Shown here piece by piece: positions 4,738 through 9,739 of a stretch of 35,338 bases of DNA. Where the stretch lies: contig CAJXKB010000030.1 in the NCBI GenBank assembly GCA_913055825.1, forward strand, positions 1 to 35,338, in the 5' to 3' direction. Source of the stretch: an uncultured Bacteroidota bacterium. Lineage in GTDB: Bacteria > Bacteroidota > Bacteroidia > Bacteroidales > F082. Below the pieces are notes generated by a model that did not search any database, was not told the origin of the DNA, and saw only the letters and a program-made list of their open reading frames with translations. A program made the translations under genes and the position numbers. Position 1 is the stretch's first letter. Every line of letters starts with the position of its first letter.

Positions 4738-6207
4738 TTAATCAAGGTTAAACCAGTGTTTTATGGTTTGTTCCTTATTCGGTTCCTGATGATGATAAAA
4801 TTCGTTTGAAACAGGGTCGTAACGATAATCTTTGGCCCATTCATTGTGATTTTTTGCGATTTGATTTACCCCATCAATGATGGTATCCAATTCCTCACCG
4901 GTCATGGTGGGATGCAATGAAACACGCACAAAACCCGGCTTTTGGGAATGGTCGCCATGGCTGATCATTTCGGTAATACGATGTGATTCTTTAGGCCCTA
5001 TCCCCAGCAGGATATGTCCGTAAGTGCCGGCACAGGCACAGCCACCACGAACCTGGACACCAAACCGGTCGTTTAGCAATTTAACCACTAAATTGTAATG
5101 TACATCATCCATATAAAATGAAAAGATGCCCAATCGGTCTTTCACCCGGTCGGCCAGAATATGAACACCCCGAATTTGTGAAAACCCCACAAAAGCTTTT
5201 TCAATCAGCTCATCTTCACGTTGTTTCATCAGTTTTGTATCCATTTGTTCTTTCACTTCAATGGCCAGTGCTGCACGCATAGCTTGCAGAAATCCGGGGG
5301 TCCCGCCGTCTTCCCGCAATTCGATATCATCAAAATACATGTGTTCACCCCAGGGATTTGTCCATTCTACCGTGCCACCACCCGGCTGATCAGGTACCTT
5401 ACGATTATACATGGATTTATTGAAAATTACTACCCCTGAACTACCGGGGCCACCTAAAAATTTATGGGGTGAAAAGAAAATGGCGTCTAACCTTTCCATT
5501 TCATTTTCGGGATGCATGTCGATGTCAACGTAAGGGGCTGAACCGGCGAAATCAGCGAAAGCCAACCCTCCGTATTCGTGCATGATGGCTGCCAATTGGT
5601 GATATGGCGGCTGTATACCCGTTACATTGGAACAGGCCGAAAAGGAACCGATTTTCATTTTCCGGTTTTTGTATTTTTTGAGCTGCCTGCGTAGTTCGTC
5701 CGGATTGACGCGATTGTTTTCATCGGGTTGCAACAAAATCACTTCGGCAATGGTTTCTAGCCATGATGTTTGGTTGGAATGGTGTTCCATGTGGGTTACA
5801 AAGACTACCGGACGTTCTTCTTTAGGTGTACATTGGCCATCTTCCCAGATGGCACAATTTTTCAGGCGAAGTATCCGCTGAAGTTTATTGACAACTGATG
5901 TCATGCCAAAACCTGAGGTAACAATTACATCATCAGGACCGGCATTCACATGCTGTTTTATTTTGTTGCGTGCATAGTGATAGGCTTTGGTCATTAGTGT
6001 TCCGGTTTCTGAAGTTTCCGTATGTGTATTCCCCACAAACGGACCAATAATTTTGGCCATTTTATCTTCAATGGGAGCGTATAAACGGCCGCTGGCCACC
6101 CAGTCGGCATAAATTAATTTCTGACGGCCGTAAGGAGTATTAAAATACAATTCATTGCCAATGGTGTTTTTCCTGAATTTTTCAAAATGTTTTTCCAAGT
6201 CTGTCAT
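4738..6207 (-). CDS. class-V PLP aminotransferase, cysteine-desulfurase-like
   Basis: 489 residues, fold type I PLP enzyme. The PLP lysine is K249 in FFSPHKFLGGPGSSG, and the aspartate that contacts the pyridine nitrogen is D219 in AFADFAGSAPYVDID. A Cys-rich active-loop-like segment, RGGCACAGTYGH, stands near residue 390. These features match the NifS/SufS/isopenicillin-N-epimerase superfamily, but the protein is longer than the usual ~405-residue SufS and the Cys motif differs, so it may be a cysteine desulfurase, a cysteine lyase or another enzyme of that group. Upstream lies a 21-residue leader ORF with eight cysteines, followed by an intrinsic terminator (6246-6381), which supports cysteine as substrate or signal. 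It stands alone with no suf/isc genes nearby. Confidence 0.85.
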   Translation of the reverse strand: MTDLEKHFEKFRKNTIGNELYFNTPYGRQKLIYADWVASGRLYAPIEDKMAKIIGPFVGNTHTETSETGTLMTKAYHYARNKIKQHVNAGPDDVIVTSGFGMTSVVNKLQRILRLKNCAIWEDGQCTPKEERPVVFVTHMEHHSNQTSWLETIAEVILLQPDENNRVNPDELRRQLKKYKNRKMKIGSFSACSNVTGIQPPYHQLAAIMHEYGGLAFADFAGSAPYVDIDMHPENEMERLDAIFFSPHKFLGGPGSSGVVIFNKSMYNRKVPDQPGGGTVEWTNPWGEHMYFDDIELREDGGTPGFLQAMRAALAIEVKEQMDTKLMKQREDELIEKAFVGFSQIRGVHILADRVKDRLGIFSFYMDDVHYNLVVKLLNDRFGVQVRGGCACAGTYGHILLGIGPKESHRITEMISHGDHSQKPGFVRVSLHPTMTGEELDTIIDGVNQIAKNHNEWAKDYRYDPVSNEFYHHQEPNKEQTIKHWFNLD

Positions 6208-6245: not shown

Positions 6246-6280
6246 AAAAAAAGCCTTACAAATCTATAACTGCAAGGCTT
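6246..6280 (-). terminator. intrinsic terminator / attenuator in the leader of the class-V aminotransferase
   Basis: On the minus strand AAGCCTTGCA (6280-6271) pairs with TGTAAGGCTT (6260-6251), ten pairs including one G-U, around a ten-base loop. Seven consecutive T follow (the last two stem bases plus 6250-6246). This is a standard Rho-independent terminator placed 38 bases before the aminotransferase ATG and nine bases after the stop of the Cys-rich leader ORF. A terminator between promoter and gene makes sense as an attenuator. I could not find a strong antiterminator by eye: the leader's TGCAA can pair with TTGCA of the 5' arm over five bases only. Confidence 0.8.
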
Positions 6281-6289
6281 AATAATATG

Positions 6290-6355
6290 TTAGTGGTGGG
6301 CAAAACAAATTGCACAACAACAATTTAAACAATTACAACAACAAAAACCGTTCAT
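6290..6355 (-). CDS. cysteine-rich leader peptide (21 aa)
   Basis: ATG at 6355-6353, stop TAA at 6292-6290. The peptide has Cys at positions 5, 6, 7, 9, 12, 13, 14 and 17 out of 21 residues, in the pattern CCCNCLNCCCAIC, and all eight codons are TGT. It ends in two His codons. A -7 box (TACATTTG, 6381-6374) lies about 20 bases upstream and an intrinsic terminator nine bases downstream, then the class-V aminotransferase. This is the arrangement of amino-acid attenuator leader peptides (compare trp and his leaders, and the polycysteine ORFs described in mycobacteria). That the ORF is translated and senses charged tRNA-Cys is inferred. A competing two-codon ORF (ATG AAA TGA) starts five bases earlier and overlaps its start. 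Alternatively it could be a tiny metal-binding protein. Confidence 0.7.
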   Translation of the reverse strand: MNGFCCCNCLNCCCAICFAHH

Positions 6356-6373
6356 TTCATTTATTTAAAAAAG

Positions 6374-6381
6374 CAAATGTA
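6374..6381 (-). promoter_or_regulatory. -7 promoter box of the Cys-leader/aminotransferase transcript
   Basis: TACATTTG on the minus strand fits TAnnTTTG exactly. No TTG is found at the usual 19-21 base distance, so the -33 element is weak or absent. The expected start, near 6367, would give a transcript that begins just before the leader ORF. Confidence 0.5.
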
Positions 6382-6450: not shown

Positions 6451-6489
6451 TACCACCAAAAAGCCATTTATAACAGCTTTTTGGTGGTA
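6451..6489 (-). terminator. strong hairpin downstream of the Asp-box protein
   Basis: TACCACCAAAAAGC (6451-6464) and GCTTTTTGGTGGTA (6476-6489) are a perfect 14-base inverted repeat with an 11-base loop. It sits about 40 bases past the stop of the minus-strand gene 6527-9739 and upstream of the aminotransferase leader promoter. There is no T-run outside the stem, so it is either a terminator of atypical form or an RNA 3'-end stabiliser. Confidence 0.6.
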
Positions 6490-6526: not shown

Positions 6527-9500
6527 TTATTTTTCAAGTGTAACAGCCGGAATCTCCAACGATTTAAACATCTGATTAAAGGCATTGAGCCGTTTGTGCA
6601 ACAATGGTTTAAGTTGCTCCATTTGTCGATCAACCTGCCCGGATAACATTTTGAAAACTTCATAATCCTGTTTGTTGGGGCGGTTGTAGGATGAACGAAC
6701 TGTTGAAGCCAGTGCAGTTAGTTTGTTATTCAACCTGATGGGATAATTGAGTGGGTCTTCGCCGGCATGCGAGCGTGTCTGCATAAGTTTGTTTTCAATA
6801 TCAGTCAGGTCCTTTTCAATTTTGTTGGCCATTTTGTTCAATGTATCAGCTTTAGGATTAGTTTTCAGCGGCTTCATCCGGTTTTGTATCTGACTTTTTA
6901 CTTTTCTGATTTGATTAATAGCCCGGTCGGTGGCATCCAGCTTTTTGTAAATCTTCATTAAAAGTGCAAATTGTGCTTCCAAATCTTTCTGCGAGGCTTT
7001 AATACGCGGGTCTTTTTTTACTGTAAATTCCTGTGTGTAAAGTTGATTACCTATTTTCAAAAGTGCTTGATATTTTCCGGGGACGACTTGTGGCCCTGCC
7101 ATGTTGCCACCCCATAACACGGCACCCGGAACAGCTGTGGCGTTGGGATAGCGTAAATTCCAGACAAATGAATTCATTCCCGCTTTCCCGGTTAGCACGT
7201 CTCCGCGGTGACGGTTGTTATCAGGATAAAACTTTTTGGAAGTTTTAACAGGACGACCGCGCGAATCTTTTTTATTGGAAAAAACGGCTATGGTATCGCC
7301 TTTCATTGTTTTGAAGAATAGGCTAATTTGTTGATTATCACTAATTTTATTTTTCAGATAATAAAAAATCTCCAAGCCGTTGGCCGGATTTTCACCCACA
7401 GCCACTCCCGGACGGTGAAAGCTGTAGCCATGCATCAAATATGCCGGCTCCGGTTGAAAAAGAAAAGCATTTCTATCCGGTAGTTTATCCGAAAACTGAC
7501 GCAGGACCTTTAGATGATCGAAAATCCAAAATGCCCGGCCATGTGTAGCCAGCACAAGGTCGTTTTCCCTGTTTTGAATGGCGATATCGCGAACAGGGAC
7601 GTGTGGAAGGTTCAACTGAAAGGATTGCCAGTACCGGCCACCGTTAAACGAGACATAAACACCCCGCAGTGTTCCCACAAAAAGCAAATTAGCATCTTTT
7701 GTGTCCTGACGGATGACAAAAACTGATTCGTCAGCAGGCAAATTGTTTGAAATGGATTCCCAATGTTTTCCGTAATCAGTGGTTTTAAAAATATAGGGTT
7801 TAAAATCATCCTGACGATATTTACGGGCTGCTACAAAAGCTGTGCCCGCATAAAAATGAGAGGCCTCAATGTTGCTTATTGTTGTCCATTGGGGCATTTG
7901 TTTGGGGGTAACATTTTGCCAGCTTTTTCCACCGTCGGTGGTTAGGTGTACCAGGCCGTCATCGGAGCCTGCCCATATAACTCCTTCTTCCAGGGGTGAT
8001 TCGGTAAGTGAAAAAATAGTATTGTAATATTCCACTGCTGTATTATCTTTTGTAATGGGGCCGCCTGATGCAATTTGTTTGCTGCTGTCGTTTCGTGTTA
8101 AATCGGGGCTGATCCTTGTCCAGCTTGCCCCTTGGTCGGTGCTTTTGTACACATATTGCGAAGCTACGTACAAAGCGTGATCAGAATGCGTTGAGAGAAG
8201 TATGGGATAAGTCCACTGAAAACGATCACGCAGATTTTTTGCGCCGTGCCCCATTGGGTTGTCGGGCCAAACGGCAATGCTCCTGCGTTGACCGTTAAGC
8301 CGGTTGTACTGTGTCAATGCCCCATCGTAGCCTCCGCCATAAGTAGTCCCGGGATGTTGTAAATCGGGAATCACAAAGCCGCTTTCTCCTCCGGCTGCAG
8401 GCCACCAGTCTTTTTCGGTAATACCAAAACCGTTGGTACGGCTCATAATCTCAACCGTTGAATTGTCCTGCTGAGCACCGTAAACATGATAAGGAAACTG
8501 ATTGTCAACCGAAACATGGTAAAACTGTGCCGTAGGTTGATTGTTCTCTGACGACCAGCTCTTTCCGCCGTCAAAGCTGATGCCCGCACCGCCGTCGTTG
8601 CCAACAATCATTGTTTTTGGATTTTCCGGATTAATCCAAAGTACGTGATTATCTCCGTGTGGGGTGCGCAAAGCATGAAAAGTGTTGCCACCGTCAACTG
8701 ATTTAAAAAGCCCGGAAACCTGTGGGGCATATACTACATTTTCATTTTTCGGGTCGGCATAAAGCATACCGAAATACCATGCACGTTGGGTTAACTGTGA
8801 CTGATGATAACGTCGTGTCCATGTTTTTCCACCGTCATCAGAACGAAAAACCCCACCATTTTTAGCCTCTACAAATGCATAAACCCGGTCGGAATTCGCA
8901 GCGGAAATTGAAATGCTGATTTTTCCCAAAGTACCTTTTGGCAATCCGGGGTGGTGCGAAATATTTTTCCAGGTGGTTCCGCCGTCGGTGGATTGATATA
9001 GGCCGCTCCCCGGGCCGCCGCTGGAAAATATCCAGGGTTTACGATACGCTTCCCACATACCTGCAAACAAAATCCTAGGATTGTTCGGATCCATCACAAT
9101 GTCGGAAGCCCCGGTTTTTTCATTCACGTAGAGAACTTTCTCCCATGTAGTTCCACCATCGGTGCTCCGGTAAATTCCCCTTTCGGGATTATCGGCAAAA
9201 ACATGGCCCATAGCTGCTACGAAAATGCGATTGGGATTTGTGGGGTCAACGACAATATTGCTGATAACGTGTGTATTGTTCAGACCAATAGCTTTCCATG
9301 TTTTGCCTCCATCTACTGATTTGTAAAGGCCGTCGCCGGTAGCCATGTTTCCCCGAATAAAGGATTCGCCCATGCCGGCATAAATTACATTCGGGTCAGA
9401 TGGAGCTACACAAAGCGCTCCCACATTTCCGGTTTTAAAAATGGAGTCGGAAATATTAATCCAACTAATTCCCCCGTTAACGGTTTTCCATACTCCGCCG

Positions 9501-9739
9501 CCGGCACCTCCAAAATAAAAAGTCCCGGGTTGCTGCGCACTGCCGGCTACAGCCACCGAGCGTCCGCCGCGAAATGGGCCGATGTTCCTGTAGCGTAATG
9601 CCTGAAACATGTTTTTGGGATAGGCTTTTTGGTTGGCCAACTCTTTTTTGACGTGTTTGCGTTGCCCGAAAACAACACCTGAGACCAGCATAATGACGGC
9701 CATTAGCACGGCTTTTGACAATAGGTTTTGATTTTTCAT
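6527..9739 (-). CDS. secreted Asp-box (BNR/VPS10-type) beta-propeller protein
   Basis: 1070 residues. A signal peptide (cut near Q26) is followed by a long beta-propeller region with about ten Asp-box motifs (S/T-x-D-x-G-x-x-W), for example SVDGGKTWKA, STDGGTTWEK, STDGGTTWKN, SDDGGKTWTR, SFDGGKSWSS, STDQGASWTR and TTDGGKSWQN. This is typical of the WD40/YVTN/BNR-repeat 'glycosyl hydrolase' family of Bacteroidota. A beta-sandwich-like part follows (about 800-920), then a helical, probably coiled-coil C-terminal region (about 930-1060). No T9SS sorting tail is seen, so it is probably periplasmic. Asp-boxes fold as propeller blades and occur in sialidases, sortilin and photosynthesis assembly factors, so the catalytic label often attached to this family is not supported by any residue I can point to. 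Confidence 0.85.
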   Translation of the reverse strand: MKNQNLLSKAVLMAVIMLVSGVVFGQRKHVKKELANQKAYPKNMFQALRYRNIGPFRGGRSVAVAGSAQQPGTFYFGGAGGGVWKTVNGGISWINISDSIFKTGNVGALCVAPSDPNVIYAGMGESFIRGNMATGDGLYKSVDGGKTWKAIGLNNTHVISNIVVDPTNPNRIFVAAMGHVFADNPERGIYRSTDGGTTWEKVLYVNEKTGASDIVMDPNNPRILFAGMWEAYRKPWIFSSGGPGSGLYQSTDGGTTWKNISHHPGLPKGTLGKISISISAANSDRVYAFVEAKNGGVFRSDDGGKTWTRRYHQSQLTQRAWYFGMLYADPKNENVVYAPQVSGLFKSVDGGNTFHALRTPHGDNHVLWINPENPKTMIVGNDGGAGISFDGGKSWSSENNQPTAQFYHVSVDNQFPYHVYGAQQDNSTVEIMSRTNGFGITEKDWWPAAGGESGFVIPDLQHPGTTYGGGYDGALTQYNRLNGQRRSIAVWPDNPMGHGAKNLRDRFQWTYPILLSTHSDHALYVASQYVYKSTDQGASWTRISPDLTRNDSSKQIASGGPITKDNTAVEYYNTIFSLTESPLEEGVIWAGSDDGLVHLTTDGGKSWQNVTPKQMPQWTTISNIEASHFYAGTAFVAARKYRQDDFKPYIFKTTDYGKHWESISNNLPADESVFVIRQDTKDANLLFVGTLRGVYVSFNGGRYWQSFQLNLPHVPVRDIAIQNRENDLVLATHGRAFWIFDHLKVLRQFSDKLPDRNAFLFQPEPAYLMHGYSFHRPGVAVGENPANGLEIFYYLKNKISDNQQISLFFKTMKGDTIAVFSNKKDSRGRPVKTSKKFYPDNNRHRGDVLTGKAGMNSFVWNLRYPNATAVPGAVLWGGNMAGPQVVPGKYQALLKIGNQLYTQEFTVKKDPRIKASQKDLEAQFALLMKIYKKLDATDRAINQIRKVKSQIQNRMKPLKTNPKADTLNKMANKIEKDLTDIENKLMQTRSHAGEDPLNYPIRLNNKLTALASTVRSSYNRPNKQDYEVFKMLSGQVDRQMEQLKPLLHKRLNAFNQMFKSLEIPAVTLEK

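Follow-up and report, generated by a model that had tools for sequence, protein, structure and literature searches.

Does a short, cysteine-rich open reading frame with a terminator behind it place the next gene under the control of cysteine supply, and in which direction would such a switch work? The question is raised by a 35,338-nucleotide contig of an uncultured Bacteroidota bacterium (the window, by which we mean that whole stretch), where such a leader precedes a class-V PLP enzyme gene on the minus strand. In the classical trp and his attenuators, the leader peptide contains many residues of the amino acid that is sensed, and an intrinsic terminator follows. From the comparison of sequences we conclude that positions 6381 to 6246 are probably a ribosome-mediated cysteine attenuator, a leader that would bring the gene under cysteine-sensing control whatever the sign of the response.

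The leader locus and its enzyme

All parts of the locus lie on the minus strand. The leader begins with the box TACATTTG (TAnnTTTG, read from the sequence at 6381-6374), which we take to be a -7 promoter box of the Bacteroidota type. Behind it, ORF reading gives a 21-codon upstream ORF (uORF), MNGFCCCNCLNCCCAICFAHH, from the ATG at 6355 to the TAA at 6290, with eight Cys codons, all TGT. Its two Cys blocks, both TGTTGTTGT, lie at 6343-6335 (invariant in all eight leaders of the genus) and at 6322-6314 (partly conserved), and the position of a small hairpin past the second block, predicted from seven genus leaders, is 6316-6295. Nine bases separate the uORF stop from the hairpin of an intrinsic terminator (6280-6246; ten pairs, one of them G-U, and seven T; -14.4 kcal/mol), and the gene for the class-V PLP enzyme, SufS-like by HMM and PDB matches, runs from the ATG at 6207 to 4738 (489 aa). 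An earlier note on this DNA had named the -7 box, the 21-codon uORF with eight Cys codons, the terminator and the gene's ATG, and all of them lie, to the base, where it had placed them.

An ORF of this kind is rarely produced by base composition. When the 319-nt gap was shuffled 20,000 times with its dinucleotides kept, an ORF of at most 30 aa with at least eight Cys arose 0 times and a short ORF with CCC 97 times. Both alternative frames of the uORF region hold stops, and among the four ORFs of the window with at most 45 aa and at least five Cys, CCC occurs in the leader uORF alone. A scan of the window against Rfam at the gathering threshold matched no curated family, and an explanation of the leader as a structured RNA of the Rfam type was dropped for this reason. 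A mini-ORF, ATG-AAA-TGA (6360-6352), overlaps the start of the uORF. A second TAnnTTTG, TAGATTTG (6266-6259), sits in the loop of the terminator hairpin in the window only (1/8 leaders); judged by its letters, it is a possible second -7 box and could bypass the switch there. Farther upstream, between the leader and the gene at 6527-9739, a perfect 14-pair hairpin, TACCACCAAAAAGC...GCTTTTTGGTGGTA (6451-6489), is visible by eye and is perhaps the terminator of that gene.

The enzyme itself matches Aminotran_5 (E 2.6e-43), in line with its earlier reading as a class-V PLP enzyme. Its best NCBIfam match is SufS (TIGR01979), at 130.3 bits and far under the cut-off of 475.1, and its best sequence matches in the PDB are SufS proteins (E 6e-27). 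K249 and C392, invariant in nine proteins of the genus, align opposite a K and a C of SufS that are presumably the PLP lysine and the catalytic cysteine. We therefore call the enzyme SufS-like, with a putative role in cysteine metabolism and a score that does not reach the TIGR01979 cut-off for SufS. Its predicted structure is poor (mean pLDDT 52.2), and no recurrent sulfur gene was noticed in the neighbourhoods of 110 class-V loci, where clusters were judged by eye. If cysteine sensing is true, it would provide a functional clue for this desulfurase-like enzyme.

Two features of an attenuator are present, as predicted from sequence: a short Cys-rich ORF with its frame kept (8/10 in the genus) and a terminator (10/10). 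Transcription would start just past the TACATTTG box, and a ribosome would translate the 21-codon Cys-rich leader as far as charged tRNA-Cys allows, stalling at Cys codons when the charged form runs short. The position of the ribosome would then decide whether the terminator at 6280-6246 halts RNA polymerase before the SufS-like enzyme. We infer the transcription start, leader translation, stalling at Cys codons and read-through alike.

Conservation in the genus and beyond

Close orthologues of the enzyme (E <= 1e-60) are found in 70 of the 173 genomes of the family. In the window's genus, ten of 12 genomes have the gene (G148 and G153 are without an orthologue), and eight of these ten have a uORF with CCC and a terminator; in G144 and G152 the gene is present and the CCC leader absent. 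A second, truncated gene copy in G149 was left out of this survey. The eight peptides are MNGFCCCNCLNCCCAICFAHH, MNHCCCTGFCCCQACCLKAEPY, MNHCCCNGICCCQISSFDT, MNHCCCNGVRCCHICCLIRELYKKTAFLL, MNHCCCNGTCCCQISFFDT, MNLCCCNGTCCCQSFSLTPDI, MKHCCCHKMLNCTQSNCCN and MKFCCCSSCYKNI, and the leader at L033 (WGGC01000027.1, Bacteroidales bacterium isolate S147_9) is identical to that of L011.

Conservation is concentrated on the coding features. Across seven aligned genus leaders, ATG-AA and the first Cys block are 100% identical, and mean pairwise identity is 79% in the second Cys block, 70% in the terminator, 53% between the second Cys block and the terminator, and 48% in the 5' UTR. A TAnnTTTG box stands 18-22 nt ahead of the uORF ATG in 8/8 genus leaders. 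In all eight, indels and a variable length between the Cys blocks leave the frame intact from the ATG to the end of the second block, and the alternative frames mostly bear stops.

The choice of codon admits another reading. TGT is used at 51/51 Cys codons of the eight leaders, against 31 TGT and 7 TGC in the downstream genes, and such uniformity could mean selection on the RNA. In that case, the UGU repeat would work as RNA, through protein binding or pairing, and the frame would be incidental. The maintained frame and the stop-bearing alternatives speak against this, and we consider it very unlikely.

The peptide could also be the product that matters, a metal- or redox-binding one, with the terminator just ending its own transcript. 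The spacing CCC-x-G-x-CCC in L004, L005, L007 and L008, and in L006 with one Cys replaced, would suit such a peptide, but spacing and flanks differ in L001, L010 and L011, and seven of the eight genus leaders have no TAnnTTTG between uORF and gene. A functional peptide is, in our judgement, very improbable.

Outside the genus the element becomes rare. A CCC uORF was found at nine of 110 class-V loci, every one of them in the window's genus, with one contig counted twice; L009, a class-V locus of the genus, has none. The earlier note had proposed checking the orthologues for a Cys-rich ORF with a terminator, and the outcome is divided: the pair is present in 8/10 orthologues of the genus and in 2/5 of family f63 of the same order (MHCCCNINYCCCKHSSVH or MNCCCNINYCCCKHSSIH, each with a terminator), and a CCC uORF is present at 0/100 loci of other genera (97 distinct, three of them with less than 150 nt upstream). 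None of 314 regions upstream of other long ORFs in 80 named loci had a CCC uORF. As orthologues outside the genus mostly lack it, the class-V leader element is lineage-specific. In a sister genus (L012, L013, L015, L020), a different short ORF, like MExDCS...HSIFSSGCQ, was seen by eye at the site of the Cys leader.

A covariance model was built from seven genus leaders, with L011 excluded from the model and from pair counts because its terminator was misaligned. Searched against 393 genomes of the order, it matched ten genomes at E <= 0.003. At three of the nine loci outside the window the match coincides with a Cys-rich uORF; in one case the next gene is an f63 class-V orthologue, and in two it is cysE-like, with a cysteine-synthase gene behind it. 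Among 30 loci scanned from the listed genus matches of model R1, the only Cys-rich uORFs at a match were the known leaders, that of L011 (locus L140) among them.

Cysteine leaders before other genes

The class-V gene is not the only one with such a leader in the window's genome. On another contig (G000:C55; L225 on the minus strand, and L234), MKEANSSYRFIQPAISCCCCCCCCC and a stop, with nine Cys codons (six TGT and three TGC), precede the genome's best cysK/CBS-like match, a gene best scored as cystathionine beta-synthase (CBS; 458.7 bits, cut-off 510) and followed by one of the cystathionine gamma-synthase family (513.2 bits, cut-off 513). In a sister genome (G151, L235), MKKTTTYPLIFITTTSCCCCCCC, with seven Cys, stands before the CBS-like orthologue, and in G150 the contig breaks off inside the leader, so that three Cys codons and a stop are all that can be read. 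Neither of the two CBS leaders that are complete showed an intrinsic terminator behind it. Runs of five Cys codons were read at 30 loci of the genus; they gave CBS leaders in two genomes, and those at L250 and L273 lie in Cys-rich ORFs.

The wider phylum holds a larger set before cysE. A cysE match was obtained in 145 of 295 genomes, and 70 of the places listed were examined: the 50 with the highest scores and, from the 25 ranked next, 20. Among the top 50 (L155-L204; L158 has 130 nt upstream only), 13 combine a Cys-rich uORF with a terminator behind it (-15.8 to -27.6 kcal/mol) and five more have a Cys-rich uORF without a good terminator; in the 20 lower-ranking loci the uORF was found in 0. 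Two of the 13, L155 and L173, belong to the genomes that prompted the cysE survey. A cysteine-synthase gene lies behind cysE in both loci examined (L143/L155 and L150), and at L155 cysK scores above its cut-off and cysE is the top-scoring family, below its cut-off.

Across the phylum, 217 of 395 genomes contain a run of six Cys codons, and many of these matches are not leaders. We read 62 such loci and accepted 13 as poly-Cys uORFs that precede a gene, with target families tested at one locus each. The targets are the CBS-like gene of the window's genome, cysS (2), a cysM-like gene (2; L314, L315), a PhyH-type dioxygenase (5), and, one each, O-acetylhomoserine sulfhydrylase (L312), a TonB receptor (L316) and uroporphyrinogen-III methyltransferase (L332); terminators were found at L314, L315 and L332. 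The PhyH-type leaders (L300, L302, L304, L324, L330) are rich in Met and Cys, such as MSNKRNMFNFFKGRMQANMRMCCCCCC, and stand 51-53 nt before the gene in four of five, L302 reading differently. Six further candidates that the same mechanical rule picked out, with a CCCC ORF and a next ORF (L276, L294, L299, L309, L321, L325) were dropped, as they overlap other frames or are unlike leaders.

In one Bacteroidota family, the best 30 of 144 genomes with a cysS match (L337-L366) were surveyed, and a CCC uORF ending 52-80 nt ahead of the gene was found in 18, two of which had prompted the survey. The Cys run adjoins the stop codon in 17 of the 18, and the rest of the peptide is variable. The CBS and cysS leaders have the Cys run alone in common, a further point against a functional peptide, and the Cys leaders of other genes mix TGT with TGC, which tells against a UGU repeat acting as RNA. 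The claim that charged tRNA-Cys controls read-through gains from this company, since Cys-rich leaders, in the same genome and phylum, stand before genes for making cysteine and for charging tRNA-Cys; the trp-type antiterminator that would go with it was not found at the class-V gene.

Leaders of this type have been predicted elsewhere. Cys leader peptides were proposed in 2005 for cys operons of mycobacteria and P. acnes and for cbs of Bifidobacterium longum, and no obvious terminators are described for these actinobacterial cases (PMC1262725). uORFs precede cysA2, Rv0485 and nirA in mycobacteria (PMC4633059), the cysA2 uORF having support from ribosome profiling, so that the earlier statement on mycobacterial poly-Cys leader ORFs agrees with these two sources. 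Cysteine genes of M. smegmatis are cited as under translation attenuation in a 2026 paper that refers to Canestrari 2020 (PMC13236596). In Rhodobacterales, the uORFC-8-2 motif before cysS was predicted in 2021, with Cys codons and a terminator (PMC8632094). Leader-peptide attenuation in Bacteroidota is mentioned in PMC9723704 and PMC7366714, with no cysteine case in the passages concerned. Searches of the open full-text literature, to which most subscription papers and all preprints do not belong, gave no description of a cysteine leader in Bacteroidota; the earlier note, too, knew of no such attenuator in this phylum.

The actinobacterial leaders share with ours a short uORF with Cys codons before cysteine or sulfur genes, and the CBS leader of the window's genome (poly-Cys to the stop, no terminator found) matches what is described for the cbs leader of B. 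longum. The class-V leader differs in its terminator, its internal Cys blocks and its target, and it falls outside the actinobacterial poly-Cys description (Cys run near the stop, no terminator). uORFC-8-2 is similar in its tandem Cys codons within a uORF, the stem that contains them, its terminator and its predicted ribosome-mediated Cys attenuation; it differs in belonging to Alphaproteobacteria, in serving cysS only, in having two Cys codons with UGC dominant, and in its presumed starvation-ON sign.

Terminator geometry and the sign of the response

An antiterminator was sought by a shuffle test in ten class-V and 13 cysE leaders, and a geometry test added two cysM leaders; the terminator arms of L164 and L172, too long in the former, were redefined for the latter. 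The terminators of the class-V leaders follow or overlap the uORF in 10/10 (-11.0 to -21.9 kcal/mol), and in L006 the uORF itself enters the terminator. An antiterminator better than shuffles was found in none of the ten class-V leaders (p 0.17-0.80), as against seven of 13 cysE leaders at p <= 0.02 (the other six at 0.06-0.79). The earlier remark that no strong antiterminator was visible by eye is borne out by these figures, and classical trp-type wiring is not supported for the class-V gene.

At cysE, the 5' arm of the terminator has its pairing partner in a purine-rich strand that lies at the end of the Cys region or past it. A ribosome placed on the Cys run leaves 0.57-0.99 of that arm sequestered in 13/13 leaders; when it stands at the stop codon, sequestration falls under 0.4 in eight and is at least 0.66 in five. 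As modelled, the cysE leaders resemble classical starvation-ON wiring. The two cysM leaders, unlike cysE, reach merely 0.30-0.38, and the class-V leaders 0.11-0.69 (median 0.29).

The position of the stop codon sets the two groups apart. From stop codon to terminator core there are -17 to 15 nt in the ten class-V leaders and 23-35 nt in the 13 cysE and two cysM leaders (Mann-Whitney p 3e-5, 10 vs 15). If a ribosome reaches 14 nt from its A site, as we assumed, one at the last Cys codon touches the core in 0/10 class-V leaders, and one at the stop covers part of the core in four and falls 0-4 nt short of it in six. Since the stop abuts or overlaps the terminator and no classical antiterminator is found, the modelled geometry leans towards a gene that is ON when cysteine is plentiful: completion of the leader would favour read-through, and stalling would favour termination. 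This sign would suit a cysteine-consuming enzyme.

The same sensor might still work with the classical sign, stalling freeing an antiterminator that escaped detection (weak pairs, or one assisted by tertiary contacts or protein) and starvation turning the gene ON. Leader peptides as a rule follow the classical logic, the cysE leaders sequester the 5' arm as described, and in both f63 class-V leaders sequestration rises when the first Cys block is occupied by a ribosome (0.26 to 0.69 and 0.45 to 0.50). In the eight genus leaders, however, the same ribosome lowers the weak sequestration or leaves it unchanged, and none of the ten class-V leaders beats its shuffles. We regard the classical sign as a serious possibility, on the doubtful side.

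Compared with the trp and his attenuators, the class-V leader has no detected antiterminator and its stop codon adjoins the terminator. New here are the phylum, the gene under putative control and an architecture that lacks the antiterminator of many cysE relatives. We suggest, tentatively and with some reserve, a Cys-leader regulon across the phylum with opposite signs, an antiterminator at cysE-cysK turning synthesis ON when cysteine is short and, with no antiterminator, a stop codon directly beside the terminator turning the desulfurase-like gene ON when it is replete. Bacteroidota are abundant in guts and seas, and no regulator of their cysteine supply is, to our knowledge, established; if true, a regulon that takes in cysE, the CBS-like operon, cysS, cysM and siroheme synthesis would fill this gap. 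The inverted attenuator, if true, would let one codon sensor serve both synthesis and consumption through a shift of the stop codon relative to the terminator.

Control could also act on translation, with the segment behind the terminator pairing with the bases that separate the Cys blocks and hiding the gene start. One pairing register is common to L005 to L008, but shuffle p values range from 0.03 to 0.85 and fall below 0.1 in one of ten leaders, and we think this reading unlikely. The pairing of that segment with the Cys region that is visible by eye was rejected as not above shuffles.

The attenuator reading draws on the aligned hairpins as well. In the seven leaders, the terminator and the hairpin after the second Cys block have 84.8% of cells paired, a value that 1 of 500 shuffles equalled, and their covariation score was as high in 2 of 500; two of the five pair measures are unexceptional (39 and 218 of 500 shuffles as high). 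The second hairpin has some covariation support in these seven leaders, its structure coming from the same alignment, and the window forms three of its six aligned pairs.
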